37,503 nt of DNA, taken from positions 1-37,503 of IMG/VR virus record IMGVR_UViG_3300021425_000083, one strand, 5' to 3'. Every line of letters begins with the position of its first letter. Position 1 is the first letter of the stretch. This stretch comes from a virus. Made by a program: the position numbers and the translations under genes. Shown in pieces: positions 4,535-35,300 of the stretch. The notes beneath the pieces are model-generated. The model saw nothing but the letters and a program-made list of their open reading frames with translations. It searched no databases and was not told the DNA's origin.

Positions 4535-5089
4535 ATGGCAAGCGTATTTGATACAATTAAACAAAAAGCAGGCGATACAGATAAATCGGCTACGTGGTAT
4601 AGAACACAAGTAAATAAGATTGCTAGTGGTACTACAGCAGGTCAATTATTCAGACAAGGTAAACTTAACGGTAGACCTAGTGTAGGACGATTGAACTTAT
4701 TTGGGTATAACCCTAAATTTAGAAAGACTTTACCGTACTACGATATATTTCCTTTAGTCTTGCCATTAGAACCAATATCAGGTGGATTTATGGGTATGAA
4801 CTTTCACTATCTACCACCGTTGTTGAGATTTAGACTATTAGAACGTATGCAAGCAACTGCTACGGATCAACGATTTGATAGTAAAACAAAATTTGATGTA
4901 ACTTATGATGATGTAAAAAATATAAAGATTGTAAAACCAACAATCAAAAAGTATTTGTATTCATATGTACAAACAGGATTTTTAAGAATAAATGCAGATG
5001 AAGCTGCAGTTGCAATATACTTACCTGTACAAAGATTTAAAAAGGCAAATGAAGCACAAGTTTATTCAGACAGTAGGAGATTTATTTAA
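4535..5089 (+). CDS. Conserved tail/baseplate-region protein of unknown function (184 aa)
   Basis: The gene heads the hub block, directly before the tube-initiator-like gene, which it overlaps by one base (TAATG). The middle reads LPYYDIFPLVLPLEP, then GGFMGMNFHYLPPLLR, a style I associate with structural proteins of marine T4-like phages, but I cannot name a T4 counterpart. It has no signal peptide or membrane segment. No Shine-Dalgarno sequence precedes the ATG; a late-type octamer does, at leaderless spacing. A virion or tail-assembly role is inferred from position and from its late promoter. DNA end protection (gp2) or a head-tail connector role are alternatives I could not support. Confidence 0.7.
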   Translation: MASVFDTIKQKAGDTDKSATWYRTQVNKIASGTTAGQLFRQGKLNGRPSVGRLNLFGYNPKFRKTLPYYDIFPLVLPLEPISGGFMGMNFHYLPPLLRFRLLERMQATATDQRFDSKTKFDVTYDDVKNIKIVKPTIKKYLYSYVQTGFLRINADEAAVAIYLPVQRFKKANEAQVYSDSRRFI

Positions 5090-6180
5090 TGTCATTAATT
5101 AGTGTCGGTAAAAGAATAGGTGATTTAGATATACGTTTAGGTATACCACCATCAAAATCACAGTTTAGTGTTAATGATACAAACAAACGTTTTGATTACA
5201 ATAACAAAACAACAAATAGAGATTCTATATTTAATAGATTTAGATCAGGTATTACACAAGCTGGTGGATTTGCTAGACCAACACAATTTCTAGTTACAGT
5301 AGATGGCCCAAAAGGTAGTGCATTAGGAAATGTTGGCATTTATAATGACACTCAATCATTAGATCAAGTTGCTCGATTACATAAAAGTGCTAAACTATCT
5401 GATGCCATTAAAACAAATTTACAATTAAGAATGGATTTATTTTGCTCAAATGTTAGTATACCTGATAAAACAATAACTGATGATGTCAATGAACAGTATT
5501 ATGGACCTAAAAGAGCAATGGCAAAAAATGTACAATATGGCGATGTAACATTAGAATTTTACACTAGTATTAATTATGAAGAAAGATTATTTTTTGAAGC
5601 ATGGCAAAACTCTATAATTGATCCTATCAGTCATAACGTAGGATATTATGATGACTATGCCACACCATGTATGATTACAATTACACCATTGACAAAAACA
5701 TTTACAGCTGCATTGGCAAACTTTAAACCATCAGGTGATCCAGGCAGAGATAGACAAGAGTTAAGAAAAAGTTTAGGTGATCAATCAGGTTTTTCATCAT
5801 ATCAAGTACAAATGTATGAAGTATGGCCTAAAACAATTGCTGCTACACCATTAAGTTATGACGCAGGAAGTGGAATTGTTAAAACAAGTGTCACATTTAC
5901 ATATAGAAATTATGCTACAACAGCATGGAACTTTCTAGCAAAAAATAATACTGAAGAATTTAAAACACTTGACAGAATGGAATATAGAACAAATACTACA
6001 AACATACAAGGTAGTTTTTTAGATAATTTACCATTTGGTATTGGTAACGAAATAGGTAGAGCGGGTCGTCAAGTTTATGAAACAATTAAAAAGAATATAC
6101 CGATAGGTAGAGTAACGGGTGGTAGTGTATTCCCAAAAGGTCTTCCAGACCCTAAAATTATACGAAACATATTTTATTAA
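5089..6180 (+). CDS. 54: gp54-like baseplate tail-tube initiator
   Basis: The 363-residue protein contains a tail-tube-like core: ARPTQFLVTVDGP (about residues 64-76), LFCSNVSIPDKTI, YGPKRAMAKNVQYGDVTLEF, FFEAWQNSIIDP and VGYYDDYATPCMITI. This resembles the gp19/gp54 tube fold, with a long N-terminal arm and C-terminal extension. In T4, gp48 and gp54 cap the baseplate and start tube assembly. Another gene here (9057-10166) is the better match to gp48, which leaves gp54 for this one. The start codon overlaps the previous stop, and a TAGGAGA ribosome binding site precedes it. The exact gp54 assignment is inference; a tube-fold hub protein is more secure. Confidence 0.65.
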   Translation: MSLISVGKRIGDLDIRLGIPPSKSQFSVNDTNKRFDYNNKTTNRDSIFNRFRSGITQAGGFARPTQFLVTVDGPKGSALGNVGIYNDTQSLDQVARLHKSAKLSDAIKTNLQLRMDLFCSNVSIPDKTITDDVNEQYYGPKRAMAKNVQYGDVTLEFYTSINYEERLFFEAWQNSIIDPISHNVGYYDDYATPCMITITPLTKTFTAALANFKPSGDPGRDRQELRKSLGDQSGFSSYQVQMYEVWPKTIAATPLSYDAGSGIVKTSVTFTYRNYATTAWNFLAKNNTEEFKTLDRMEYRTNTTNIQGSFLDNLPFGIGNEIGRAGRQVYETIKKNIPIGRVTGGSVFPKGLPDPKIIRNIFY

Positions 6181-6197: not shown

Positions 6198-6914
6198 ATG
6201 AGTATACCATTAATGAAAGTGCCTGAATATGATTTAACATTATCAAATAATGTAAAAATAAAGTACAGGCCGTTCTTAGTAAAAGAACAAAAACTATTGT
6301 TACTTTCAAATGAAAATCAAAATGAAAGTGAAATGGTTAATATCTTAATTGATATTGTACAAGCGTGTGTAAAAGGTGATATAGATGTTAAGAAACTGCC
6401 TGTATATGATTTTGAATGGCTGTGGTTAAATATAAGATCAAAATCTATTGGTGAGGTTGTGAATTTGAAATTAAAATGTCCAGATGATGACACACAAGTT
6501 GTTGACTATGAATTAAGAATAGAAGATGTAAAACCTGATTTAAATAAAAAAGTTAATACTAAAATTGAATTTACAAAAGATTACGGTGTAGTGATGAGAA
6601 TACCTACAATCAAAGAAGTTGCAAACAAAAGAACAATTTTAGATATGTCAATTAATTTAATGAGAGATTGCATTGATCAAATATATCAAGGTGAGGAATT
6701 ATTTGAAGCAAAAGAAATTGAAAAGGAAGAGTTGAATGAGTTTTTAGATAATCTTACAATGACACAATTTAAAAAGATAAAAGATTATTTTGATACTTTG
6801 CCAATTATATCACATACGATAAAATATAAAAACCCTAAGTCGGGTGTTGAACACAATTTATTATTACAAGGAGCAACTGATTTTTTTCAGTTACCCTCTT
6901 ACACGAAAGCCTAG
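6198..6914 (+). CDS. 26: gp26-like baseplate hub/tail assembly chaperone, zero-frame product
   Basis: The protein (238 aa) resembles the T4 gp26 family (T4 baseplate protein family PF12322): NVKIKYRPFLVKEQKLLLLS near the N-terminus, then VKKLPVYDFEWLWLNIRSKS and LKLKCPDDD. In T4, gp26 is required for hub assembly. The AAGGAG at 6187-6192 supports the ATG at 6198; a GTG at 6192 overlaps that ribosome binding site and is unlikely to be used. Near the 3' end the sequence T TTT TTT (6881-6887) is a classic -1 slippery heptamer, and the -1 frame stays open for 64 more codons. The position just upstream of the probable tape measure matches tail assembly chaperone genes that use this kind of frameshift. 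Confidence 0.78.
   Translation: MSIPLMKVPEYDLTLSNNVKIKYRPFLVKEQKLLLLSNENQNESEMVNILIDIVQACVKGDIDVKKLPVYDFEWLWLNIRSKSIGEVVNLKLKCPDDDTQVVDYELRIEDVKPDLNKKVNTKIEFTKDYGVVMRIPTIKEVANKRTILDMSINLMRDCIDQIYQGEELFEAKEIEKEELNEFLDNLTMTQFKKIKDYFDTLPIISHTIKYKNPKSGVEHNLLLQGATDFFQLPSYTKA
6881..6887 (+). promoter_or_regulatory. Putative -1 ribosomal frameshift site (T TTT TTT)
   Basis: In the zero frame of the gp26-like gene the codons are GAT TTT TTT CAG. The preceding T plus two TTT codons form an X XXY YYZ heptamer. A -1 slip continues as TCA GTT ACC and fuses a conserved-looking 64-residue C-terminal extension. Confidence 0.72.
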
Positions 6915-7081
6915 AGAGTTATTTTAGAACAAATTTTGCTTTAATGCAATATCATAAATATTCTCTATCAGACCTTGAAGGAATGATACCGTGGGAGAGG
7001 GAAATATATGTTGAACTATTAATGCAACATATAAAAGAAGAAAACGAAAAGTTAAGAGAAAAACAAAGAGGGAGAACATAA
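6887..7081 (+). CDS. -1 frame C-terminal extension of the gp26-like chaperone (64 codons)
   Basis: Read from TCA at 6887, the frame is open to a TAA at 7079-7081 that overlaps the next ATG (TAATG). The peptide contains RTNFALMQYHKYSLSDLEGM, then IPWEREIYVELL and KEENEKLREKQRGR. This reads as real protein: an IPWEREIYV helix followed by a charged helix. The only internal ATG (6944) lacks a ribosome binding site, so a frameshifted product of 294 residues starting at 6198 is the best explanation. In lambda-like systems the longer GT-type chaperone recruits the tape measure, and the extension here precedes a tape-measure-like gene. Its exact T4 counterpart (possibly the gp51 role) is inference. 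Confidence 0.68.
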   Translation, partial: SVTLLHESLESYFRTNFALMQYHKYSLSDLEGMIPWEREIYVELLMQHIKEENEKLREKQRGRT

Positions 7082-7350
7082 TGTTAGAAACAGGAAAATA
7101 CATAATTAAAAATGTGTGGGTATTTTTAAGAGATGAAGTGCCACAGTTTTTATCAAACTGGAGAATGATACCAAGAGTGTTTATGCTATTGTATGGTGTT
7201 GCATTTTATGAAACAATGCAATGGTTTATGGCACTGGCTGAACCAAACAACGCACAGGCAGGTTTTGTATCTGTAGTAGTTGGTGCTGGTGCAGCTTGGT
7301 TTGGATTATATGTAAATGGTAAACCTAGTAAAATAGAAACAAAGAATTAA
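7081..7350 (+). CDS. Small two-helix membrane protein (89 aa), possibly holin-like
   Basis: The ATG overlaps the stop of the frameshift extension (TAATG), with a GAGGGAG ribosome binding site just upstream. Two hydrophobic stretches are visible, around residues 31-50 (PRVFMLLYGVAFYETMQWFM) and 62-77 (FVSVVVGAGAAWFGLY), with a short polar loop and a basic C-terminus (KPSKIETKN). This layout fits class II holins and other phage inner-membrane proteins. Its place between the tail chaperone and the tape-measure-like gene is unusual for a holin. The membrane protein call is secure; the holin call is only a possibility. Confidence 0.6.
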   Translation: MLETGKYIIKNVWVFLRDEVPQFLSNWRMIPRVFMLLYGVAFYETMQWFMALAEPNNAQAGFVSVVVGAGAAWFGLYVNGKPSKIETKN

Positions 7351-7353
7351 CAA

Positions 7354-9048
7354 ATGCAATCAAAAGTCTTTAAAAAAGGAAGTCCTGAAAATTTTAATAA
7401 GATTCTTAAAAGACAAAAAGAAGAAGAGTCTGATCCTAAGTTTGCTATATCTGATGCCTTGCAAGAATATCAATCACAGTTAGAGAAATCTGCTGGGTAT
7501 CAGAATCAAAGTAAATTAAATGATGCTAAAATAAGAACAGATATAGTCAACTATGTGATAAACTATGGTCCTGGTGATTTAGAAGGATTAAAAGGAATGG
7601 AGTTTGATGACGCAAAAACTCTACAAAAGACTATTGAAAAAGAAATAGGTGAATATGAAGGATTAAATAAAAAAGGCATTATTAGTGATGAGGAACTTAT
7701 ATTCATAAAAGAAACTGTAGGTAGAACAAATGAACAACTAAAAAAAGTTTTAGGACTAACCACAAAATTATCATTATCATTTAGAGATTTTAAAAAAGAA
7801 TTAAAACCTTTAAAATTAGCACAAAGAATAGGTCTTACAAATATACCAATCATTGGTAAAAGAATTGAAAGGGCGATTGAGTCTGATGAGCAGGCAGAAA
7901 GTAATGCATTATCTTTGAAAAGAAGATTAAGAACAAAAGAGGCTAAAGAGCAATTTAAAACTGGTGGACAAAGTACCGTACAAACACAATCAGAGCAAAG
8001 AGAAGAATTAGCAAAAGAGGCCACATCATCACTATTTACAGAAGCACCATCAATAAGTGCAAGAAGTGTATCAAAAGAAAATTTAGTAGAAGAAGAACGA
8101 GAATCTGATAAACAATTTGAAACATCATCAGGTTTGTTAGAAAAGATATTAATTGAATCTGAATTAACAAACGAATTATTAGGTGGTAAAAAACGTGGAG
8201 AGAGTGATGAGGGAGTTGGTTTTTTAGAAAAAGTTTTGGGCATAAAAATTCTTAAAGATATGTTTACAAAACCAGGGTTTGTACCAAACGCTGGTAAAGT
8301 AGCAACAGCATTGACAGGATTAACAGCAACAGGATTAGGTATAACTGTATTGTTTGGAGGTGCAGTAGGAACAGCAATAGGTAAACTTGTTAAATACTTT
8401 TTTGGTTCAAGGGACGACAATCCAAATGAAAGAGAGATAGAAAAAAAAGAAAGTGAATTTGGATATAATGATGAAACAAATATGGATTATGGATACCTTG
8501 CTGAAGATAAAAAAGAAGCAATTATAAAAGACGAATATACCAAATACAAAGGTGAATTAGGTGATATGTCGTTTGAAGAATTTAGAGATGCTAGAAAGAA
8601 TATTGGCATAGGAAAATATATAGAGGGAAGTAATCGAGCAGATAAAGGTAATGCAGAGTCAATGAAAAATATTGACAAGATAAAACTTTACAATGAAGAT
8701 CCTAATAAATTTAGTACAATGTATCCAAAGAAATCATTTTTTCAAAAAGTATCCGATGTTTTGTTTAGTGGAACAACTGAAGATTTAGAAAAAACGTATT
8801 CAGGTCAATCAGCTGCAATGGGATTAATGGACACTAACTTTATACCTTTACAAAAAAATGAAAAGGTAAATGAAATGAAAGTCAATCAACTAGAAAAATT
8901 AGAAGTACAAAATGGTGCAGGCACAAATGTTATCAATAATAGCGTTGTTAATGCTGACAATTCTACTAGTATGACTAATGATATGAACACATCTATAGGC
9001 ACAACAAACGCAGATAAAACAGTTGAGAAGTTTGCAAACTACTCATAA
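7354..9048 (+). CDS. 29: Probable tape measure/baseplate hub protein (gp29-like)
   Basis: The 564-residue length is close to T4 gp29 (590). The sequence is highly charged and helical in character. A single hydrophobic, glycine- and alanine-rich segment lies at about residues 315-345 (ALTGLTATGLGITVLFGGAV), a common feature of tape measure proteins that later contact the host membrane. Long Lys/Glu-rich stretches flank it, and the C-terminus is Asn/Thr-rich. It follows the chaperone with a frameshift and precedes gp48, which caps the tail tube baseplate in T4. I see no specific gp29 motif, so the assignment rests on length, composition and order. If correct, at about 1.5 angstrom per residue it would set a tail of T4-like length. 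Confidence 0.6.
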   Translation: MQSKVFKKGSPENFNKILKRQKEEESDPKFAISDALQEYQSQLEKSAGYQNQSKLNDAKIRTDIVNYVINYGPGDLEGLKGMEFDDAKTLQKTIEKEIGEYEGLNKKGIISDEELIFIKETVGRTNEQLKKVLGLTTKLSLSFRDFKKELKPLKLAQRIGLTNIPIIGKRIERAIESDEQAESNALSLKRRLRTKEAKEQFKTGGQSTVQTQSEQREELAKEATSSLFTEAPSISARSVSKENLVEEERESDKQFETSSGLLEKILIESELTNELLGGKKRGESDEGVGFLEKVLGIKILKDMFTKPGFVPNAGKVATALTGLTATGLGITVLFGGAVGTAIGKLVKYFFGSRDDNPNEREIEKKESEFGYNDETNMDYGYLAEDKKEAIIKDEYTKYKGELGDMSFEEFRDARKNIGIGKYIEGSNRADKGNAESMKNIDKIKLYNEDPNKFSTMYPKKSFFQKVSDVLFSGTTEDLEKTYSGQSAAMGLMDTNFIPLQKNEKVNEMKVNQLEKLEVQNGAGTNVINNSVVNADNSTSMTNDMNTSIGTTNADKTVEKFANYS

Positions 9049-9056: not shown

Positions 9057-10166
9057 ATGTCAAAACCTTTTAAACTTATAACAAATGTAGTAAATGGATT
9101 ATTTAAAAAACAATCCTCTGGACTAACAGGTGGTACTGTAGCAAATTTTAATACTATTGCTAGTAAAAAGGGAATTATAAATTACAATCCAACAAACGCT
9201 GATTATTCATCTCCTCATAGAGTAGAAAGTAATAACTTTTACGTGTACCCTATAGACAAACAAGATCAGGAACATTATATTTTATTTGATATAATTGAAA
9301 GACAGGCTGGAGATGCAACACCTAAAATTGGTGGTAATAGACAAGCAACTAAAAGAGCAGATAACCTTGATCAAGTTGTATATGGTGCAAATAGATTTTT
9401 TAGTGAGAGTTTTGTTAAAGGTGGTGATTTTGATATAACAGGAAGTGCAGGATCAAAAAGAGTAATAAAGGATACTATAGCAATATATATGCCTCAAACA
9501 ATAAAATTTCAATATGCAGCTGGTTATGGTGCAGCTGAAGTTGGAGTTGGATTTGCAGCATTTGAAGCATTAAAAAAATCAATAACTAAAGGTAATGTTG
9601 CAGAAAACTTTAAAGGTTTAGGGCAACAATCAATTAATTTGTTAAGAGATGGGTTTGCTTTTTTATCAGCTGGTGTAGGTGCAGGACTAGGTGCAGCCGC
9701 ACAAAGAAAAACAGGTTTAAGTGTAGCAGCAATGCAAGAAATGATTTTTGAAGGTATAGATTATAGAACATTTAGTTTTACATTTAAATTTACACCAAGA
9801 AGTAGAAAAGAATCTGATGTTGTAAATAATATGTTACACACAATCAAAGAGTCTATGTTACCTGAAAAATTTGGTGGTGGTAAATCAATTGCTGCTTATA
9901 AAGTACCACATGAATTTGTAATAAGATTTATGAAAGGTACACAAATTAACGCATTTTTAGATCCAATAGGATTATGTGCTTGTACTGGCGTTGATATAGA
10001 TTATGGGTCTGATAAGTTTTCAACTCATGCGGCTGGTGATCCAGTGTCAATTGACGCTACGTTAACATTTAAAGAATTAGAACTTGTAGAAAGAACAAGA
10101 TATAACGAGTTACGAGATAGTGCTCGAGGTGGTGGTATGATACCAGATAGAGGTAGAAATAGATAA
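9057..10166 (+). CDS. 48: gp48-like baseplate tail tube cap
   Basis: The 369-residue length matches T4 gp48 (364). Conserved-looking parts include AIYMPQTIKFQYAAGYGAAE, TFSFTFKFTPRSRKESDVV (T4 has VFTWDLTPRSTEDL at the equivalent place) and a C-terminal VDIDYGSDKFSTHAAGDPVS region leading into LTFKELELVERTRY (T4 ends LEITMREIITLNRASLY). In T4, gp48 sits on the hub and, with gp54, nucleates tube polymerisation. The gene ends by overlapping gp53 (TAATG). Translation appears to start without a Shine-Dalgarno sequence, directly behind a late-type octamer. Confidence 0.82.
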   Translation: MSKPFKLITNVVNGLFKKQSSGLTGGTVANFNTIASKKGIINYNPTNADYSSPHRVESNNFYVYPIDKQDQEHYILFDIIERQAGDATPKIGGNRQATKRADNLDQVVYGANRFFSESFVKGGDFDITGSAGSKRVIKDTIAIYMPQTIKFQYAAGYGAAEVGVGFAAFEALKKSITKGNVAENFKGLGQQSINLLRDGFAFLSAGVGAGLGAAAQRKTGLSVAAMQEMIFEGIDYRTFSFTFKFTPRSRKESDVVNNMLHTIKESMLPEKFGGGKSIAAYKVPHEFVIRFMKGTQINAFLDPIGLCACTGVDIDYGSDKFSTHAAGDPVSIDATLTFKELELVERTRYNELRDSARGGGMIPDRGRNR

Positions 10167-13071: not shown

Positions 13072-14193
13072 ATGAGTACTACAGATTTTATGGGCAAAGA
13101 CGGCTTCATCTGGTTTGCAGGTGTAGTAGAGGACAGACAAGACCCACTTAAATTGGGCCGTGTTCGTGTTCGTTGTTTAGGTTATCATACAGAAGATAAG
13201 AACGTATTACCTACGGCCGATCTACCTTGGGCACATCCTTTATTACCTATTACTTCATCTGGTGTATCTGGTATAGGCCAGACGCCATTAGGTCTGCTCG
13301 AAGGTTCGTGGGTGATTGGTTTCTTCCGTGATGCAGATACAAAACAAGACGCAGTAATCCTTGGTGCATTGCCAGGCAAACCTACTACATCAGGTGCATT
13401 TAATGCCGCAGAAGGATTAGGTTTCTCAGATCCAAATGGAGTATACCCTAGAGCGCAGGCAGAGGGTAGTACGGCTGCTCAGCATGATGTCAATAGACTA
13501 GCACGGAATGACACAGATGATTCTTCTATTACACTTGAAGCAAGAAAGGCCTTACGTGCCGCAAATTATACAAACATACCAACGGCCACTATACAGGCCG
13601 TATTTGATACTGCTTCTGAAGGTGATGTATGGTCCCTACCTGAAAACACTTACGCCGCAGAATATCCTTACAATCACGTATATGAAACAGAAAGCGGCCA
13701 TCTATTAGAATTTGATGATACACCAGACAAAGAGCGTATTCTACAATATCACCATAGTGGTACAGAAACAGAAATTACGGCCGCAGGAACAAAAAATGAA
13801 ATAAACAAAGACTCAACCTATACGATAACCGAAAAGAATAACAAGGTCTACATTAAGGGCGACTCAGATATTACCTTAGGTGGCCGTCATAAAGTAATCA
13901 TAAACGCAGACGGCCAAACAGGCAATAACTATGATATACAAATCGGACCTAATGCAAATGTCAATATACAAGTAGAAGGTGGTAATGTCAATGTATCTGC
14001 CTTTACATCTCAAAGCGGCCCTAATTCAGTAGGTGGTGATATTAATCTATTTGCAGGTAAAGACATTACCATGGCCGCTACAGGCCAGTTAACCATTAGT
14101 GCCAATAAAATCATAGAATCTTCACAAACAACAACCACAAGAAGTGCTCAAGGAGAGTATCACACATACGGTAACCCAATTGACCATAATTAA
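13072..14193 (+). CDS. 5: gp5-like baseplate hub spike protein without lysozyme domain
   Basis: Residues about 12-100 form the gp5/VgrG-type OB-fold (FIWFAGVVEDRQDPLKLGRV, RVRCLG, LPWAHPLLPI, GSWVIGFFRD, AVILGALPG). The middle part to about residue 200 lacks the T4 lysozyme domain; no lysozyme Glu-Asp-Thr type motif is visible. From about residue 240 it becomes a repetitive beta-helix (DITLGGRHKVIINADG, then NANVNIQVEGGNVNVSA, GGDINLFAGKDITMAATGQL), the membrane-piercing needle. T4 gp5 is 575 residues, so this 373-residue form fits loss of the enzyme domain. Base composition is higher in G+C than in neighbouring genes, with frequent GGCC. The PAAR tip that should cap this needle is encoded about 10 kb downstream. 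Confidence 0.87.
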   Translation: MSTTDFMGKDGFIWFAGVVEDRQDPLKLGRVRVRCLGYHTEDKNVLPTADLPWAHPLLPITSSGVSGIGQTPLGLLEGSWVIGFFRDADTKQDAVILGALPGKPTTSGAFNAAEGLGFSDPNGVYPRAQAEGSTAAQHDVNRLARNDTDDSSITLEARKALRAANYTNIPTATIQAVFDTASEGDVWSLPENTYAAEYPYNHVYETESGHLLEFDDTPDKERILQYHHSGTETEITAAGTKNEINKDSTYTITEKNNKVYIKGDSDITLGGRHKVIINADGQTGNNYDIQIGPNANVNIQVEGGNVNVSAFTSQSGPNSVGGDINLFAGKDITMAATGQLTISANKIIESSQTTTTRSAQGEYHTYGNPIDHN

Positions 14194-14941: not shown

Positions 14942-15799
14942 ATGCTTGAAAGAACGAAAACACCTATATTAATCTCTATGCCTCGTAATGGCTCTCATTA
15001 TGTGGCTCACTTTATAAGAGAGATATACAAACATAATGGTTTGTTACCTCCTGTATCTTTTACAAACGAATTTTTAGATGTTAATCCTACTAAACCTATG
15101 CAACCTATTTTTAAACGAATAGAGTTTTTAGAGTACTGCCGTAATACATGGAATTTAAATATGTTTATGAATGTTCATTCTCATCAATTAATGACACCAA
15201 TTCATATACCTTCTCGTCCAAATGTACATTGTATATTTGATTGGTTTCAGGAGTTCTATAGTGGTTATCAAATTGTAATACTACGTAGAAAGTATTTATG
15301 GAAGGCTTTTATTAGTTGGTTGTTTCATAAAGCAGTAAGAGATAGTTTAGATAGAGCTGGGGATATAAGTTTAACTGAAAGAGAGAAACTACATAATTGG
15401 CATAATAAAACTAATATAGGTGCTAACGTTGAAGATACTTTAAAATCAACTGTGTTAAAGTATAAACCTATGTTTAAATGGGATGCTTATTTCTTTGGTC
15501 AATATTGTACAAGTGTTCGTTATCTAAATGAAATTATAATACCTTATTATGATCAAACTAGTATTAAATTAAATACACGTAATTTATGGTTAGAGGATTG
15601 TAATGATGAAAGTTTAAAGAGTATATTCTTTCAGGAATATTATATACCAAATAGTACTTTACACGGTGAATGGACTCAACCTTATAAACCTTTTACTATT
15701 AAATATGAAACTTATTTTGGTGAACATTTGGCTGAAATACAAGACAAGTATAATGAACAGTATGAAAAAGAGTTTAAGTATTACGGATATACTAATTAG
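14942..15799 (+). CDS. Sulfotransferase-like P-loop protein
   Basis: From ATG 14942 the product is 285 residues. It begins LERTKTPILISMPRNGSHYV, matching the 5'-phosphosulfate-binding loop of PAPS sulfotransferases (PR-x-GS-x-x). A later YQIVILRRKYLWKAFISWLF segment fits the 3'-phosphate-binding Arg...Ser motif. Such enzymes move sulfate from PAPS to sugars, lipids or proteins; the target is unknown. A TTG at 14924 would add six residues but has no better ribosome binding site, so the ATG was chosen. An upstream late-type octamer suggests late expression. Its last 8 bases overlap the convergent PP-loop gene. Confidence 0.7.
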   Translation: MLERTKTPILISMPRNGSHYVAHFIREIYKHNGLLPPVSFTNEFLDVNPTKPMQPIFKRIEFLEYCRNTWNLNMFMNVHSHQLMTPIHIPSRPNVHCIFDWFQEFYSGYQIVILRRKYLWKAFISWLFHKAVRDSLDRAGDISLTEREKLHNWHNKTNIGANVEDTLKSTVLKYKPMFKWDAYFFGQYCTSVRYLNEIIIPYYDQTSIKLNTRNLWLEDCNDESLKSIFFQEYYIPNSTLHGEWTQPYKPFTIKYETYFGEHLAEIQDKYNEQYEKEFKYYGYTN

Positions 15800-16637
15800 G
15801 CAATAAATCAAATGCCCAAGCTTTTTCATAACACCAAAAGCATTGCCAACACCATTCAGTAAAGTTATTAGTTTGATTAGGACCTCCAACACAACTACGT
15901 GTAATAGGATATAGGTCTTTCATTAAACCTTCTTCTTTATAGATACTTGCAATAAATCTTTTGTTTAAATTAACCCAAGGTTTATATACATTGTATTTTA
16001 ATTCAGGTTCATTTTCAACATCACGTCTTGCTTCACCTCTTATTCTAGCAATGTTCTTTTCATCAAAATTGATGTTAGGAAATTTCTTTATTGCATAGTC
16101 ACTAAACTTTGCTCTTACTTCCATAGGTGGGTTTGCTGACATACCATCTAAACGTAAAGGTCTGTCTAAACGTGCCATAAAGGCATCTGAGCCATCATCT
16201 ATTTGATTTGCCTTTGACATTTGTTGTAAGTTTAATGTTTTATATTCAGGTCTTTCATCTATAAATTTTTGTGCTTTTACATAGTGTACAGGATCCTTAT
16301 CATCATAGTTTTCAATTGTATGTTCGTGTATCTTTGCATTAGGAAATTTATTCTTTATAAACTCAACTATCTCAGCAGCTGCGTCAGCGTCTTTTGGTCC
16401 ATGTACATCTCTAAATGTTAAAGGGTAAATATCAATGTTAGGAAAATGTTTTGCAGTTAAATATAATGCAGCTGCAGAGTCACATCCACCTGAAAGTGAA
16501 GCAACTACTGTTTTAGGTATACCATTTTCATCTAATGCTACATCAGCCTTTGCTCTGTCTTTATAAGGTGATGTTTCCATTAAATCTGCTATGTTTGAAT
16601 AAAAAGGAATTGTTACGTTATTATATGTTATATTCAT
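15792..16637 (-). CDS. PP-loop ATPase, QueC-like with C-terminal zinc-site cysteines
   Basis: The N-terminal half carries the PP-loop ATP-pyrophosphatase motif SGGCDS (residues 49-54), and a TFRDVHGPKDAD segment follows. Near the C-terminus four cysteines (C249, C263, C266, C269; C-x13-C-x2-C-x2-C) resemble the zinc site of QueC (7-cyano-7-deazaguanine synthase), which has a C-x8-C-x2-C-x2-C spacing. PP-loop enzymes adenylate carboxylates or carbonyls; QueC makes a nitrile. The larger size (281 aa) and the differing central region mean the substrate may not be a deazaguanine. It overlaps the upstream radical SAM gene by TAATG and a GGAGA site precedes it, so the two are co-translated. Its stop lies inside the convergent sulfotransferase-like gene. 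Confidence 0.75.
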   Translation of the reverse strand: MNITYNNVTIPFYSNIADLMETSPYKDRAKADVALDENGIPKTVVASLSGGCDSAAALYLTAKHFPNIDIYPLTFRDVHGPKDADAAAEIVEFIKNKFPNAKIHEHTIENYDDKDPVHYVKAQKFIDERPEYKTLNLQQMSKANQIDDGSDAFMARLDRPLRLDGMSANPPMEVRAKFSDYAIKKFPNINFDEKNIARIRGEARRDVENEPELKYNVYKPWVNLNKRFIASIYKEEGLMKDLYPITRSCVGGPNQTNNFTEWCWQCFWCYEKAWAFDLLPN

Positions 16638-17398
16638 TATTTAATTTCTCCGTGTCTTACTTTTCTCCAATGTGTTAACTCTGGTGTTACATTAAAATAT
16701 TCTTCATTTTTTATTTTTTTAACTATATTCTTATCACTTGGTTTAGGAAAGTTTTCATATGCCTTTGTTACATTTTTTCTTAACTGCCTACTTTTTGGAT
16801 CAAAACCTCTATTCGTTTTAATCAACAATAAAGTCATACCATTTTCTTCAGCCATTTCTTTTGCTCTTTCAATCTCGTGTTCGTTATACCCAAATATTAT
16901 ATATTGCCAAACTATTGGGTGACCCATAGCTACACCCATTTTCATTGTTTCCCACACCTGTTCAAAGTTAGAACCAATACGATATATTTCTGACTTTTTA
17001 TCTAAACCATCTACACCAAAATACCAACAGTTTTCTCCTAAACCATAACTATATGCTTTTTCCCACCACTTTTCATCCATACCTTTTGTATTGGTGCCAT
17101 TGGTTGCAATTCTTAATCCTTTACCTAAACCATCCATCATCTCTAAAAATGTTAAAAATTCAGGATGATAAATTGGATCAGATATTTGACCACAAAATGT
17201 TATTTGATTTTCATAATATGCTAACACTTTTCTAAATTCGTTTTGACCTATATCAAATGATCTTGCTATTCTAGGAAGGCCTTCTACCTTTTGTCTTAAA
17301 CATTGTGGACAACGTAATATACATCTATGTGATAGGTCCATATTTGGTGATGAAAAACGTTGATTACGAATATAGAAGTCTATTATTTTTTCGTTCAT
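16637..17398 (-). CDS. Radical SAM enzyme core (253 aa)
   Basis: The CxxxCxxC motif (C26, C30, C33, within SHRCILRCPQCLR) binds the [4Fe-4S] cluster that cleaves S-adenosylmethionine. FCGQISDPIYHPEF takes the place of the GGEP-type motif, IATNGTN is the next barrel strand, and a later VDGLDKK...YRIGSNFEQV segment resembles MoaA/SPASM-type enzymes. The length is only a core barrel, with no auxiliary cluster domain. The gene just upstream encodes exactly such a domain and overlaps it by ATGA, so the two may form one enzyme. The product overlaps the PP-loop gene downstream. Substrate unknown. Confidence 0.88.
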   Translation of the reverse strand: MNEKIIDFYIRNQRFSSPNMDLSHRCILRCPQCLRQKVEGLPRIARSFDIGQNEFRKVLAYYENQITFCGQISDPIYHPEFLTFLEMMDGLGKGLRIATNGTNTKGMDEKWWEKAYSYGLGENCWYFGVDGLDKKSEIYRIGSNFEQVWETMKMGVAMGHPIVWQYIIFGYNEHEIERAKEMAEENGMTLLLIKTNRGFDPKSRQLRKNVTKAYENFPKPSDKNIVKKIKNEEYFNVTPELTHWRKVRHGEIK

Positions 17399-17727
17399 AT
17401 TTTATAATTATCTTTTTCTCTATTGCCACATTTATATTGACATTGTTTCAAAGCACAACTAGGATTATTTAGTAGGGTGTCAAAAAAGTGTTCCCATTCT
17501 TTAGAACCAAATATATCTTCTAACTTGTCATTGTTCTTTAATGCAAGATGTTCGTCTTTTAAATGAAACACCTCCTCTACACCGTGATCATTTTTTGGAT
17601 CATCTAACCAACAACAAGGTAACATATAACCATCTGACGTATATGCAGCTGGTTTATGATAACTTTTAGGTTCATATGTTAGACACCTTGGTTTAATTTT
17701 TATATCTTTTGGATCCATTTCTTTCAT
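17395..17727 (-). CDS. Stand-alone SPASM/twitch-type Fe-S domain protein (110 aa)
   Basis: Cysteines C15, C38, C39, C91, C96 and C100 follow the SPASM/twitch pattern: a first C, then a CC pair after a DGYMLP strand, then C-x4-C-x3-C at the end (SCALKQCQYKCG) after a SKEWEHFFDTLL helix. These domains hold auxiliary [4Fe-4S] clusters in peptide-modifying radical SAM enzymes, normally fused to the barrel. Here the domain is a separate gene whose TGA overlaps the start of the radical SAM core (ATGA). A perfect sigma70-type promoter lies just upstream, with its predicted start on the ATG; no Shine-Dalgarno sequence is present. Confidence 0.75.
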   Translation of the reverse strand: MKEMDPKDIKIKPRCLTYEPKSYHKPAAYTSDGYMLPCCWLDDPKNDHGVEEVFHLKDEHLALKNNDKLEDIFGSKEWEHFFDTLLNNPSCALKQCQYKCGNREKDNYKI

Positions 17728-17733
17728 AATTAT

Positions 17734-17761
17734 ATTATATCATATTATATTCTAATGTCAA
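17734..17761 (-). promoter_or_regulatory. Consensus sigma70-type promoter inside the minus-strand cluster
   Basis: On the minus strand TTGACA (17761-17756) and TATAAT (17739-17734) are 16 bases apart. The predicted start, 7 bases after the -10 box, is 17727, the A of the SPASM gene ATG. It fits exactly into the 37-base gap after the nitroreductase gene. Confidence 0.78.
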
Positions 17762-17764
17762 GCT

Positions 17765-18517
17765 CTAATGATATTGTATGATTTTATTAGGGTCACATTT
17801 GTTTTCCCAATTTTCTCCTTTAGGGTCTGTAGAGTTAGTTTTTAGAGGATCATCAAAATCTGCTTTATAACCCAATTGTAATACGTGTAAGGGTGCTTCT
17901 TTTACCCATGGCAATTCTGACCATTGTTTACCATATTTGTTTGTTTCTACTACGTATTTGTTTTCATTTTCATCCCAATCCCATATAGGCCATGATTGTA
18001 TAAATGAAACAGATAAACCTTTTTCTAATGCAAGTGCTGTTAGTGACATAATAAACATTCCTACTTCTAATGAGGCAAGATTTCTATTTGCAGTTCTTCT
18101 AAACGCAACTGGATCTGATTGTGAAAATCTTTTATCAGTTCTACCAACATCTATATCAGTTTGTTTGTGTCTTTTTTCGTGTTCAGCAGTAAACTGATTA
18201 TCTTCAGCCAATCTTACAGTAAATAGTAAAGTATATGGAGGTCTTTTATGTCCTAAATCTTTATTGTTATCCATTTCTAATTCATATTTAGCAACACTAC
18301 CAGTTTTGTGTAAAGCACATATACCTGTAATAATATCAAGTTCTTTTTTATTATCAGGTCCTATGACGTGTACTTTAAATGGCTGTAAATTATTTTTAGA
18401 TGGTGTTAACTCTAAACATTTTTTTAATAAGGTATCAACTTCTTCTTTACTTGGCACTTTTTTGTTATCCCAAGCTGCTCTAACTTGTCTTCGTTTTTTT
18501 ATTAAATCTTCCCACAT
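17765..18517 (-). CDS. Nitroreductase-family flavoprotein
   Basis: The 250-residue protein starts with the family's FMN-phosphate motif (LIKKRRQVRAAWDNKKVP) and a SKNNLQPFKVHVIG strand typical of nitroreductases. NLASLEVGMFIMSLTALALE and KGLSVSFIQSWP form the second half, and the end reads HVLQLGYKADFDDP. Members use FMN and NAD(P)H to reduce nitro groups, quinones or cofactor intermediates, and some (BluB, thiazole or azoline dehydrogenases) carry out special cofactor or peptide chemistry. It begins one base after the radical SAM gene upstream, without a Shine-Dalgarno sequence, so coupling is likely. The function within the cluster is unknown. Confidence 0.82.
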   Translation of the reverse strand: MWEDLIKKRRQVRAAWDNKKVPSKEEVDTLLKKCLELTPSKNNLQPFKVHVIGPDNKKELDIITGICALHKTGSVAKYELEMDNNKDLGHKRPPYTLLFTVRLAEDNQFTAEHEKRHKQTDIDVGRTDKRFSQSDPVAFRRTANRNLASLEVGMFIMSLTALALEKGLSVSFIQSWPIWDWDENENKYVVETNKYGKQWSELPWVKEAPLHVLQLGYKADFDDPLKTNSTDPKGENWENKCDPNKIIQYH

Positions 18518-18518
18518 A

Positions 18519-20078
18519 TTATATTATATTTGTATCTGAAGCTTCTTCAGCTTCTTTTACTGATTGATCCCAACTTTGAAATATTTTTGCTTGTTCGTTG
18601 TGATCTCTATGTTTAGAAGGATCATAGTATGGTTCTAATTCAGGAAATACTTCAAACAAATGAGATTCCCATTTTGTACCTTCATAAAATTTATCTGCCT
18701 TTAACATATAATCAAATACATTTTGTAAATCTACATCTGGATCAGCAGGTCTTTCTAGTGCAGCTATTATATCAGGCCAATCTTTATATTTTGGTATTAA
18801 TGATTTCTTAATTTCTTCTGGCAAGTTATTAGGTCTTAAATGCTTAGGTTTATCAATCATTGCCCAATTCAGTTGATCAATAACAGGATTTTCTTTTACC
18901 CAATCTATAACTTCATAAAATCTCATAACTGATAAATTAGAAACAAGACCATTAAAATCAACTACAACATTTGGATGTTGACGACACATTTCTATATTTT
19001 CTACAACTTCATTCCATTCAGTTCTTCTTCTCATATATTCAATAGTCTTACCAATACCATCTACCGAAGCAACCATAGATACATTTTTAAAATGAGGAAT
19101 ATAATTAAATATATTGTGTCTACCTTTTTTAGTTTTAGTTAAGTTGGTTTGATATTTTAAATAGATATGTTTTGCATGGCCTGACTCTATAACTTTTTCT
19201 AAAAGTTCATAATGTTTTTTCATAATTAATGGTTCACCACCAATTACTTTAATACTTCTAACGTAAGGTAATAATTCAAGTACTTGTTCGGTAACACCTT
19301 CAGTTTTATCTGCCATTACAAGTTTCATATAGTCTTCTCTAACTTTACCACGTTCACCAAATACAGCATCATTCCAAACACCTTTTTCAGCAACACGTTG
19401 TCTAGTTGTTGAGTTAGCGTGTACACACATAAAACAATCAAGGTTACATTCTGAACCAAATACTTTTAATTGTATTTCTAAAATTCTTTCATCAAAGGCC
19501 CACTTACCACTTGCCTTATATAGTTCAACATTTTTTTGAATATTATCCCAAAACTCTTTATCGTTAGTATGAATTTTTAAACAGTTTGTTCTTCTACTTC
19601 TACCGTATTTGTCCTCATCACTTCTACACCTTCGGCATATATCATTAACGGCTTTAAAGTCTGTTTTAGGATCAAGCATTTCTTTACGAATACTATTCAT
19701 ATATTCACTATCAACCATCCATTCTTTTAATGTGGTATTTTTAATAGTTTCGTGTTCAGCATCTTTACCAAAACAGCAAGCTCTGTATTTACCACTTATC
19801 TCATTATAGACCTGTGTAAAAGGTATTGTACAAAACCATATATCTTTATCTCTTGCTTGTTGTAAAATAGACTTGTCTTCTGGTGGTTGTCCAGGTATAG
19901 TTTTACTAGCTTTGAGTTTTGTTTTATCTGATAGATTTTCCCATTTCCACCATTCTTCAGTATTTACATTACCAGGTGTTGAACGATCACCTGGACCGCC
20001 CTTTGTAAGCATTTTCTCAACCTGTTTATCGTGCATATCATCAATATCTTTCACAGGCTTATTATTTAAGTCACTCAT
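18519..20078 (-). CDS. Twitch-domain radical SAM protein (519 aa)
   Basis: Residues about 75-170 form an N-terminal twitch/SPASM-like domain (C83, the CC pair at 101-102 in KYRACCFGKD, ICRRCRSDE at 147-155, then SRRTNC). The radical SAM barrel follows, with CxxxCxxC at 211-218 (SECNLDCFMC), the IKVIGGEPL motif and a SMVASVDGIG strand. The order auxiliary-then-barrel matches the N-terminal twitch radical SAM family. Such enzymes often modify peptides, but the substrate here is unknown. A perfect sigma70-type promoter and a minus-strand late-type octamer lie upstream. The latter is 5 bases from the ATG, and no Shine-Dalgarno sequence is present. It is the first gene of the cluster. Confidence 0.88.
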   Translation of the reverse strand: MSDLNNKPVKDIDDMHDKQVEKMLTKGGPGDRSTPGNVNTEEWWKWENLSDKTKLKASKTIPGQPPEDKSILQQARDKDIWFCTIPFTQVYNEISGKYRACCFGKDAEHETIKNTTLKEWMVDSEYMNSIRKEMLDPKTDFKAVNDICRRCRSDEDKYGRSRRTNCLKIHTNDKEFWDNIQKNVELYKASGKWAFDERILEIQLKVFGSECNLDCFMCVHANSTTRQRVAEKGVWNDAVFGERGKVREDYMKLVMADKTEGVTEQVLELLPYVRSIKVIGGEPLIMKKHYELLEKVIESGHAKHIYLKYQTNLTKTKKGRHNIFNYIPHFKNVSMVASVDGIGKTIEYMRRRTEWNEVVENIEMCRQHPNVVVDFNGLVSNLSVMRFYEVIDWVKENPVIDQLNWAMIDKPKHLRPNNLPEEIKKSLIPKYKDWPDIIAALERPADPDVDLQNVFDYMLKADKFYEGTKWESHLFEVFPELEPYYDPSKHRDHNEQAKIFQSWDQSVKEAEEASDTNII

Positions 20079-20663: not shown

Positions 20664-21602
20664 ATGAGAACAATTATTATAACTTTAATTATGAGTTTGA
20701 TGACAACTATAGTATATGCAAGAGACCAAATAAAGATTGTTGGTTCTTCAACCGTATTTCCATTTGCAACTGTCGTAGCAGAAAAAGTAGGTAAAAAAGG
20801 TATTAAAACACCTGTAATTGAATCTACTGGTACAGGTGGTGGTATGAAAATGTTTTGTTCAGGTATTGGTGTGAATACGCCAGATATGACAAACGCAAGT
20901 CGAGCCATTAAAACATCTGAAAAAGAAATGTGTTTTAAAAATGGCGTTACTGACATTGACCAAGTCATTGTTGGTTTAGATGGTATTGCAATTATACATT
21001 CATTTAAAAACAAACAAGTCAACTTTACAGTAGAACAATTATGGGAAGCACTTTCTGATAAAGGAAGTAAACCTACTAAATGGTCTGATATTGATTCAAG
21101 TTTACCTAATATCAAAATACAAGTGCTTGTTCCACCACCAACTTCAGGTACAAGAGATGCCTTTAACGAATTAGTTATGGCAAAAGGTTGTGCTAAAGAA
21201 GTTAAGAGTGCTAACAAAAAAGATTGTACACTTTTAAGGGATGATGGACCTGTTATTGAAGCAGGTGAAAATGATACGTTAATCATTAACAAGTTAGTTG
21301 GTGATGAAAACTATTTTGGTATATTGGGATATTCTTATTATGATAGTAATAAAGACAAAGTAAGAGCTGTTACTGTTAATGGTAAAACAATATCTTTAGA
21401 ATCTATACAAGATGGTTCGTATCCTGTAAGTCGACCATTATTCTTTTATGTAAAAAATCAACACCGTGATGTTATACCTGGTATTGATCAATATATAAAA
21501 GAGTTTACTTCAAAAAGAGCTACTGGTAAAAAAGGTTACTTAACTGATATAGGTTTAGTGCCACTTGCAAATCCAGAAGAAGCAATTTCTAAAGTAAAAT
21601 AA
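20664..21602 (+). CDS. pstS: PstS-type periplasmic phosphate-binding protein
   Basis: The product (312 aa) has a cleavable signal peptide (RTIIITLIMSLMTTIVYA, residues 2-19). Phosphate-binding segments are IVGSSTVFPFA, ESTGTGGGMKMFCSG, NASRAIK and PPPTSGTRDAF, as in PstS. In bacteria PstS feeds inorganic phosphate to the PstCAB ABC transporter. Marine phages carry it as an auxiliary gene to sustain phosphate uptake during infection of phosphorus-limited hosts. The gene is preceded by a strong two-tier hairpin that masks its ribosome binding site, so translational control is likely. No clear Pho box was found. A G+C-rich hairpin follows the stop codon. Confidence 0.92.
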   Translation: MRTIIITLIMSLMTTIVYARDQIKIVGSSTVFPFATVVAEKVGKKGIKTPVIESTGTGGGMKMFCSGIGVNTPDMTNASRAIKTSEKEMCFKNGVTDIDQVIVGLDGIAIIHSFKNKQVNFTVEQLWEALSDKGSKPTKWSDIDSSLPNIKIQVLVPPPTSGTRDAFNELVMAKGCAKEVKSANKKDCTLLRDDGPVIEAGENDTLIINKLVGDENYFGILGYSYYDSNKDKVRAVTVNGKTISLESIQDGSYPVSRPLFFYVKNQHRDVIPGIDQYIKEFTSKRATGKKGYLTDIGLVPLANPEEAISKVK

Positions 21603-32307: not shown

Positions 32308-35300
32308 ATGCCAAGTCCAACTGATTTTAATGTCAGTCCTTACTATGACGATTTTACAGAGTCGAAAAAGTTTCACAGAATACTTTTTAGACCTGCATTT
32401 GCTGTTCAAGCTAGAGAATTAACACAAGTTCAAACTCAACTACAAAATCAAATAGAAAGAGTATCAGATCACCTTTTTGACAAAGGTGCAATGATTATAC
32501 CTGGTGAAATTGGGTATGATTTAAAATACTATGCTGTAAAACTTACTTCTAAATCAGCTTCAAGTTTATCTACATACGTTGGTACAAAATTAACTGGCGG
32601 AACTTCAGGCGTAACTGCAAAAGTTATAAACGCTGTCGCAACTGACGGTACTGATCCAGATACATTATTTGTAAAATATTTTAACACAAACAGTACTGAC
32701 AACACAACAATAGCCTTTTCAGATGGTGAAACTTTAACATCGGACGGTTCAGGTAATCCAACTGTTGTTGTTGATACAACTGCTACAGGTTCAGCTGCAC
32801 AAATACAAGAAGGTGTTTATTATATTAATGGTTTTCACGTTCAAGTGTCAGCACAAACTTTAATCTTAGACAAATATTCAAACACACCTAGTTATAGAGT
32901 TGGTTTAACAGTTACAGAATCTTTTGTAACTCCAGGAGATGACTCAAGTTTAAATGATAATGCTCAAGGTACTTCAAACACAAATGCTCCAGGTGCTCAC
33001 AGATTTAAAATTCTTCTTACATTAGCTAAAAAAGGATTATCAAGTACCGAAGATACAAACTTTTATGAATTGTTAAGACTATCAAGTGGTACGTTGCAAA
33101 ATCAAGTTAGATCAACTGAATATGCTGTTTTAGAAGATACATTAGCAAGAAGAACATATGACGAGTCTGGTGACTATGTTGTTAGACCTTTTGATATTGA
33201 TGTTAGAGAACATTTAGCATCAGGTAATAATAGAGGTATCTATACATCAGCAAACGGTGGTGATACTACTAAACTTGCTGTAGGATTTTCTCCAGGAAAA
33301 GCATATGTAAAAGGTTATGAAATAGATACTATAGCTACTACTTACATTGATGTAGATAAGGCTAGAGATTTCGATACACAAAATAATTTTAGTACAAGAT
33401 TTGATATTGGTAACTATGTTAACGTAACAAACGTTTATGGTACACCAGATATTGCTTCTGCGTCAGGTATTGAACCATTTAAAGGATTAACTCTCCATAA
33501 CGTGGCTACAAGTTCACGTGGTACTGCAAATACAGGAACAGAATCTTCCGTAACACAAATAGGAAGAGCAAAAAGTAGAGGTTTTGAATATTCATCTGGT
33601 ACTGCTTCGGCAAATATTTTTTCAAATTCAAGTTTAACAAGTGCAATTTACAAACATTATCTTTTTGATATTGTTTTGTTTACTCATTTAAATATTAGAA
33701 CAGCTCAATCATTTACAACTGGAGAAGTTGTAACTGGTGGAACTTCAGGTGCAACTGGTGTTGTACAAACACACTCTACAACTGAAAGTGCTACAATTAC
33801 AGATATTACTCAAGCTGATCCTGCTGTAGTTACAGCAAACAACAATTTTAAAGAAGGTCAACAAGTTACAATTTCAAGTGTATCTGGTATGACTGAAGTT
33901 AATGGTAATGTTTATACGGTTAGAAATCCATCAGGTACAACATTTGAATTATATGACACAGACGGAACAACATCTATAGATTCATCAGCGTTCACTGCTT
34001 ATAGTTCAGGTGGAACAGCTGCACATGGAGTTGTTGTAATTTCAAGTGTACAAGGTGACTTTGTTGCTGGAGAAACTATTACAGGTGGCACATCAAGTAA
34101 CACAGCAGTTATTCAATCAGACGCTGTTGGTTTAAAAGGTGTTACACCATTTGATTTACCATCAGTTAAACAAATTGCAATGGCTGGTAGTCCAACATTT
34201 ACTGCTGATACAGCATTAGATGCTACAAATGGTGATAACTTTGTTTTAACTGGATCAATTGACGTTGGTTCAGGTTCTGCTGATGTACAAGGTATTAATA
34301 CAAGATTTACTGAAGAATTAAAAGTTGGCGACTCAATTTCATTTACAAATGATAGTGGAAATACAGAAACAAAAATAGTAGAAGCTATTATTTCAAATTC
34401 AAGTTTGACATTATCAAGTGTAACTGCAGCTGCTTCTACAAAAACAATTGTAACAAGAAGACGTGCAAAATCACAATCACCTGAAAAAAATGTTTCTATA
34501 TTTAAATTACCTTATCAAAACATTAAAACTTTAAAAACAACTGCTAACGGTAACGCTTCAGATACAACATATACTTTTAGAAAACACGAAATTAAATCTT
34601 TAACTGGAGATGGTATTGGAACATTTAATGCAGGTGTAGATGAAACGTTTGCTGATTTATCAGAAAGTGATTTTTCAATTTCAATAACATCATTAGGTTC
34701 TGGAAGTTCAGGTGCCGTTGGAGATGTTTTAAGTTTAACAGGAAACAACCACGAAGGTACTTCAATTTTTACCTTAAACGTTGCAAAAACACAATTAACA
34801 ATTGACTTTGGTGCTAATTATGCTTCACACGATATAAAGGCTTTACTAACTATAAACAAATCAGTAGGTACATCAAAAACAAAATCTTTAACAACAGGTT
34901 CACAGGTTGCAATAACAGATCAAACTACAATTGAAAGTGGTACAATAGGTCTTGCAAAAGCAGACGTTTATCAAATAAATGCAGTTTATATGGCTGCTAA
35001 TTTTTCAACAGCTGCAACTACAAGTGATACAAATATTACAAGTAGATTTGATTTAGACAATGGTCAAAGAGATAATTTTTATGACATTGGTAGAATAAAA
35101 TTAAAAGATGGTGAAGTAACACCAACAGGCCGACTATTAATTGATTTTGATTATTTTACTCATAGTTCAGGTGATTACTTTGATGTTGATTCATATTCAG
35201 CAATTAATTATGAGGATATACCAGCATATACTTCATCTACAACAGGTGTAAGATATGAGTTAAGAGATAGTTTAGATTTTAGACCAAGAGTTGATGACGC

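Follow-up and report, generated by a model that had tools for sequence, protein, structure and literature searches.

Comparison of relatives supports a programmed -1 frameshift joining gp26 and gp51 in T4-like marine phages

We asked how the end of a gp26-like gene in a marine virus is translated. The window, that is, the whole stretch of DNA that was analysed, is a 37.5-kb IMG/VR virus record; it comes from a T4-like marine virus of bacteria that is only distantly related to phage T4. At its 3' end the gp26-like gene reads, in the zero frame, CAA GGA GCA ACT GAT TTT TTT CAG TTA CCC TCT TAC ACG AAA GCC TAG. The heptamer T TTT TTT in this sequence lies in X XXY YYZ phase relative to the zero frame, and beyond it the -1 frame is open. 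The following features are relevant here:

6198-6914, plus strand: gp26-like gene, short form (TAC-N), 238 aa; PF12322 T4_baseplate 4.8e-56, phrog_150 1.2e-56, AF2 model with pLDDT 89.8
6868-6873, plus strand: Shine-Dalgarno-like AAGGAG, putative frameshift stimulator, 7 nt 5' of the heptamer
6878-6880, plus strand: TGA stop codon in the -1 frame, immediately 5' of the heptamer, read from the sequence
6881-6887, plus strand: slippery heptamer T TTT TTT, on which tRNA-Phe can re-pair in the P site and in the A site; 336 of 337 loci have T TTT TTN at this codon
6887-7081, plus strand: extension in the -1 frame (64 codons and the stop TAA), corresponding to the C-terminal part of gp51; matches to phrog_634 "baseplate hub assembly catalyst" (5.4e-28) and to the C-terminus of phrog_150 (7e-5), fusion profile contiguous with T4 gp51, pN/pS 0.10 in the overlap in the window clade

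The first-pass annotation had described the heptamer as lying nine codons before the gp26-like stop, and the -1 frame as open for 64 codons up to a stop that overlaps the next start. Both are borne out: eight sense codons follow the heptamer, the ninth codon is the stop TAG (6912-6914), and the -1 frame stop TAA (7079-7081) shares one base with the ATG of the next gene at 7081. The gp26-like protein belongs to the T4 gp26 family (PF12322 / phrog_150), as it matches the profile over the full domain, and the BFVD fold matches of its model are gp26 proteins. The extension, which had been called protein-like, does match a protein family, namely the phrog_634 profile (T4 gp51 C-terminal region). 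The predicted fusion (TAC-NC) has 294 aa (230 + 64) with the junction peptide ..ATDFFSVTLLHESL... Because of the TGA at 6878-6880, no start upstream of the heptamer can initiate the -1 frame; its first in-frame ATG lies 32 nt beyond the gp26 stop.

Could such an arrangement arise by chance? Runs of seven T's are not enriched in this AT-rich record (31 found versus 60 expected by shuffling), and from the base composition the probability of 64 open codons is about 0.004. There are 66 in-frame X XXY YYZ heptamers in the 21 plus-strand genes of the window, and at this one only is the -1 frame open past the zero-frame stop.

Loci of relatives were gathered with single-protein and closer-alignment scans; very diverse alignments did not have enough conserved blocks. 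In the marine/T4-like set, the extension stands in the -1 relation to gp26 at 337 of 342 loci and was not found at 4. An alignment of relatives had been suggested as a check of the frameshift, and in it the heptamer and the extension are conserved: an in-frame T TTT TT[C/T/G] is present at the same codon, within the overlap, in 336 of the 337 loci (224 of 225 unique junctions), and the lone exception, L209, has the end of gp26 deleted. The variant T TTT TTG occurs once, all others being T TTT TTC or T TTT TTT. From the 336 loci with a heptamer we picked 91 non-redundant ones (less than 75% identical), of which 74 have six T's and then a C at the slip site. Control Phe-Phe pairs elsewhere in the same loci are coded T TTT TTY in 20 cases out of 286. 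Furthermore, the third base before the junction Phe-Phe pair is always T, though GAC, AAC and AGC are in use.

The same frameshift layout is present in KVP40/nt-1, in the Aeh1-related phages Asswx_1 and CC2, in pf16, in Menderavirus, in the Sinorhizobium phages and in Ochrobactrum ORM_20. For Aeromonas phage Asswx_1 (L342) and for CC2 (L349) we see AGT TTT TTC at the junction and an unannotated extension without a usable start (in CC2, none before +89). In one sub-clade (L068-L080) of the window's IMG/VR relatives, the zero frame ends at once (CAA TAA) and the -1 peptide is retained (SITLSHESLE versus SVTLLHESLE).

The substitution pattern points in the same direction. Over the first eight codons after the slip, the 91 loci have a pN/pS of 0.55 in the -1 frame, 0.92 in the zero frame and 2.09 in the +1 frame, and stops in these codons occur outside the -1 frame only. 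In the eight-codon overlap of the window clade, the -1 frame has a pN/pS of 0.10 and no stops, and the zero frame is purely non-synonymous (five distinct sequences, which is a small sample). Judged from these codon comparisons, purifying selection acts on the -1 frame, starting at the slip site. Selection on the first -1 codons in turn suggests that this frame is translated from the slip site and not from a later ATG.

Next to the heptamer there are candidate stimulators. Across loci, an SD-like element is found about 8-15 nt upstream of the slip site, and the anti-SD pairing at this element in the 91 loci, at -6.45 kcal/mol, is stronger than in synonymous-codon shuffles (-4.77 +/- 0.16 kcal/mol, 0/100). 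RNA folding 3' of the site has a mean z of -1.6 to -1.9 in the 91 loci, with controls at -0.7 to 0.1; the window's own 3' stem-loop is not significant (z 0.2 to -1.4). UUU UUU and UUU UUC are decoded by the same tRNA, tRNA-Phe, and tandem tRNA-Phe slippage fits every common variant of the heptamer. Stimulation by an SD element has been documented in E. coli dnaX and in many IS elements (PMC5009743). The weak 3' structure of the window counts against the frameshift reading, and so does the fact that in E. coli U_UUU_UUU is a much poorer shift site than A_AAA_AAG (PMC5009743).

We propose the following mechanism. Most ribosomes on gp26 would terminate at the TAG at 6912 and release the 238-aa short form. 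With tRNA-Phe in both the P and the A site on U UUU UUU, a fraction of the ribosomes would slip back by one base, probably aided by pairing of the upstream AAGGAG with 16S rRNA; after the slip, reading in the -1 frame would pass the stop and yield the 294-aa fusion with the gp51 C-terminal domain. The slippage itself, its rate and the effect of the SD-like element we infer. In summary, we consider it highly probable (about 0.93) that a programmed -1 ribosomal frameshift yields, besides the short gp26 (TAC-N), a long fusion of gp26 and gp51 (TAC-NC), the two forming a chaperone pair of the lambda G/GT type. The first-pass annotation had put forward a probable programmed -1 frameshift, and this interpretation is supported by the conserved heptamer and extension together with the missing conserved separate start, to which we now turn.

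Potentially, gp51 could be a separate short protein, made by ribosomes that terminate on gp26 and reinitiate at an ATG which coincides with the gp26 stop or closely follows it; this is what GenBank annotations assume. It is so annotated in P-SSM2, S-PM2 and others, and a point against the frameshift reading is that some phages (nt-1, phiM9, S-CRM01, phiM12 and Ps15) do have an ATG directly at the stop (TAATG/TGATG), which makes separate initiation possible there. On the other hand, an ATG near the junction is found in only 28 of the 91 non-redundant loci; there is none in the window clade, pf16, P-HM2 or ACG-2014d/j and none before +89 in CC2, and in many clades there is no usable -1 start upstream. 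Since the GenBank starts of gp51 also vary (+2, +5 or +32, with the gene left unannotated in other records), the extension is not a separate gene with its own conserved start, which had been named as a finding that would speak against the frameshift. Reinitiation would leave the nearly invariant heptamer and the selection on -1 codons ahead of any start unaccounted for, and it sits badly with T4 gp51, which is one contiguous chain across the junction; the SD-like element, about 24 nt from the common +5 ATG, is too far away for initiation. We therefore regard reinitiation as very improbable. Another point against the frameshift reading comes from Ackermannviridae-type loci, L089 (Kuja) and L345 (Vibrio phage K357), which retain the -1 relation; where the canonical heptamer would stand, they carry only C CTT TTT or A CTT TTC.

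The T run itself could also be the cause, either in the cell or in the sequencer. In an AT-rich genome with seven T's in a row, transcriptional slippage that adds one base would fuse the frames into a continuous ORF. However, the six T's followed by C in most relatives keep the same phase, the X XXY YYZ phase does not vary, there is an SD-like stimulator, and the classical slippage runs in bacteria consist of 9 A or T (PMC5009743), which makes this explanation slightly less credible still than reinitiation; both are rejected on comparative evidence. A homopolymer error in sequencing or assembly would mean that the true sequence has eight T's and a single ORF, to which one extra T would indeed lead. 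Such errors may occur: the deposited Stenotrophomonas-phage record L341, outside the 337, is one T shorter at the slip site than L340, a close relative, and has an altered frame, due either to a sequencing error or to a real frame change. For the window, this explanation has a negligible probability and is refuted by independent genomes, as GATTTTTTTCA is identical in 80 IMG/VR loci from many samples, whose gp26 proteins are 58-97% identical, and in more distant phages TTTTTTC is found, in the same phase. T TTT TTT with its open -1 frame is neither a product of chance nor a sequencing error.

If the frameshift takes place, what would the two proteins do? The neighbouring genes are the following:

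5089-6180, upstream of the gp26-like gene: matches tail tube families
7081-7350, plus strand: small membrane-like protein, start overlapping the -1 stop; phrog_10198 2.8e-17, relative in pelagiphage Mosig
7354-9048, plus strand: 564-aa gene in the tape measure (gp29) position, just before gp48; position only, hydrophobic segment around 316-346
9057-10166, plus strand: gp48 baseplate tail-tube cap; phrog_230 3.9e-51

The domain shared by the short and the long form would coat the tape measure protein, and the extension would recruit tail-tube subunits. This putative chaperone role is taken from what is known of the family: one source (PMC3004832) lists both gp26 and gp51 of T4 as hub assembly chaperones, and lambda G/GT is a precedent for a chaperone pair made by frameshifting (PMC5009743). 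The assignment of the downstream gene as tape measure follows its position in the gene order: for the 564-aa product there was no convincing family match, and an iterative HMM search gave no detectable similarity to T4 gp29. No relative of the 7081-7350 protein was seen in the cyanophage records compared by the same search. For the gp26-like protein, no solved relative was found by sequence. Among the matches listed for its model, HK97 TAC 2OB9 is the PDB match with the highest probability (0.57; TMt 0.39), and its E of 1.3 makes the match to the HK97 tail assembly chaperone fold a hint only.

The families found in the window include gp32-like SSB, gp4, gp2, the tail tube type, gp26, gp48, gp53, gp5 and other baseplate genes, and Rfam and tRNA scans of the window gave no matches. 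The gp5-like hub protein (13072-14193, 373 aa) has an OB domain and, in Pfam, no lysozyme domain. Between the gp5-like and the wedge genes, the minus strand (15792-20078) encodes two radical-SAM proteins, a nitroreductase-like protein and a QueC-like one (weak); this cassette looks like an auxiliary metabolic or a peptide/nucleoside-modification cluster. The same insertion contains, on the plus strand, a phosphate-binding-protein-like gene (20664-21602; PBP_like_2, 3.8e-43). A very large ORF of at least 1732 aa (32308-37503) runs off the end of the window.

How is this gene related to the genes of T4 itself? T4 gp26 (208 aa, minus strand) and gp51 (249 aa, plus strand) are both PF12322 proteins. 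The profile of the predicted fusion aligns to T4 gp51 without a gap across the slip junction (GLQDFFRIALSHESLESYYKTNF...), where T4 gp51 is one uninterrupted ORF; T4 gp51 matches both phrog_150 (3-248) and phrog_634. To T4 gp26 the same profile aligns up to the final FF, and as this FF is coded G TTC TTT, the heptamer has been lost. The first-pass annotation was thus right to remark that T4 is not usually cited as an example, since T4 has no heptamer and its long form is a separate gene. The T4 layout, with two genes on opposite strands and a gene 26 without the heptamer, is also found in phiAS4 and Phi1. Unlike in this two-gene arrangement, the extension in the window lies only in the -1 frame, and the 37.5-kb record, which is a fragment, has a single gp26-type match and no separate full-length gp51 gene besides gp26.

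In a tree of these proteins, T4-type gp26 and gp51 cluster together (100/100), separate from the one-gene forms, as expected for a duplication in that lineage. In the T4 lineage, the one-gene arrangement would have been replaced by two paralogous genes, a short 26 and a long 51. We lean, with considerable reservation, towards the view that one-gene frameshifting (SD-like element, U UUU UUY and 3' structure) is ancestral across the T4-like superfamily, and that the T4 type derives from it by gene duplication and inversion, the short copy losing its slippery site and the long copy joining its two frames. The tree is unrooted and has some long branches, so the direction, with the frameshift as the ancestral state, is what we infer. 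If true, a fixed translational ratio was turned into two independently expressed genes in T4-type phages.

Frameshifting of this kind is already known, and what we add is its breadth, its stimulators and an explanation for the "truncated" or "missing" gp51. A 2016 review (PMC5009743) excepted T4 from the frameshift-made tail chaperones. Vladimirov, Gautam and Davidson (2022) is reported to have identified the TAC genes of T4-like phages; PRFect (PMC10885494) cites it for "some T4-like phages" with short and fused genes, and the Adele paper (PMC12846349) for the poly-T shift signals that T4-like phages carry in their TAC-N genes. Part of the present results may already be contained in that work. 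A literature search found no cyanophage ribosome-profiling data bearing on the junction. Sullivan et al. 2010 (PMC3037559) described the gp51 of cyanophages and of marine vibriophages as lacking the first ~200 residues, and Aeh1 as lacking gp51, and did not mention frameshifting. On our reading, the "truncated" gp51 of cyanophages and marine vibriophages would be the -1 half of a fusion, and so would the "missing" gp51 of Aeh1, as explained through its relatives Asswx_1 and CC2. In hundreds of marine phages, this would correct how a core tail gene is annotated. It would also extend frameshift-made tail chaperones into the T4-like superfamily and provide a clear example of related phages that achieve the same thing, some by translational recoding and others by gene duplication.

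Compared with known systems, the locus resembles lambda G/GT, where short and long forms also come from one gene, through a -1 slip at a heptamer close to its 3' end, and where the gene lies upstream of the tape measure (a positional assignment here). On the other hand, the N-domain of the window protein is of the T4 gp26 family (PF12322) and longer than lambda G, the heptamer is U UUU UUY, and an SD-like stimulator stands upstream. In the E. coli dnaX cassette, too, an SD-like element precedes an X XXY YYZ heptamer by a short distance, and there is a 3' structure, as in many of the relatives; however, the cassette is in another gene, its site is A AAA AAG, its shift product is shorter and not longer, and the 3' structure in the window is weak. 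In the TAC of Vandenendeviridae/Andersonviridae (phage Adele, PMC12846349), a conserved -1 shift at a poly-T site (GTTTTT) leads to TAC-NC by the same comparative inference, in other phage families and with another site sequence. T4 gp26 and gp51 are homologous to the short and the long form (gp51 being N-domain plus extension), but T4, Phi1 and phiAS4 encode them in two genes, whereas the window has one gene with a predicted frameshift.
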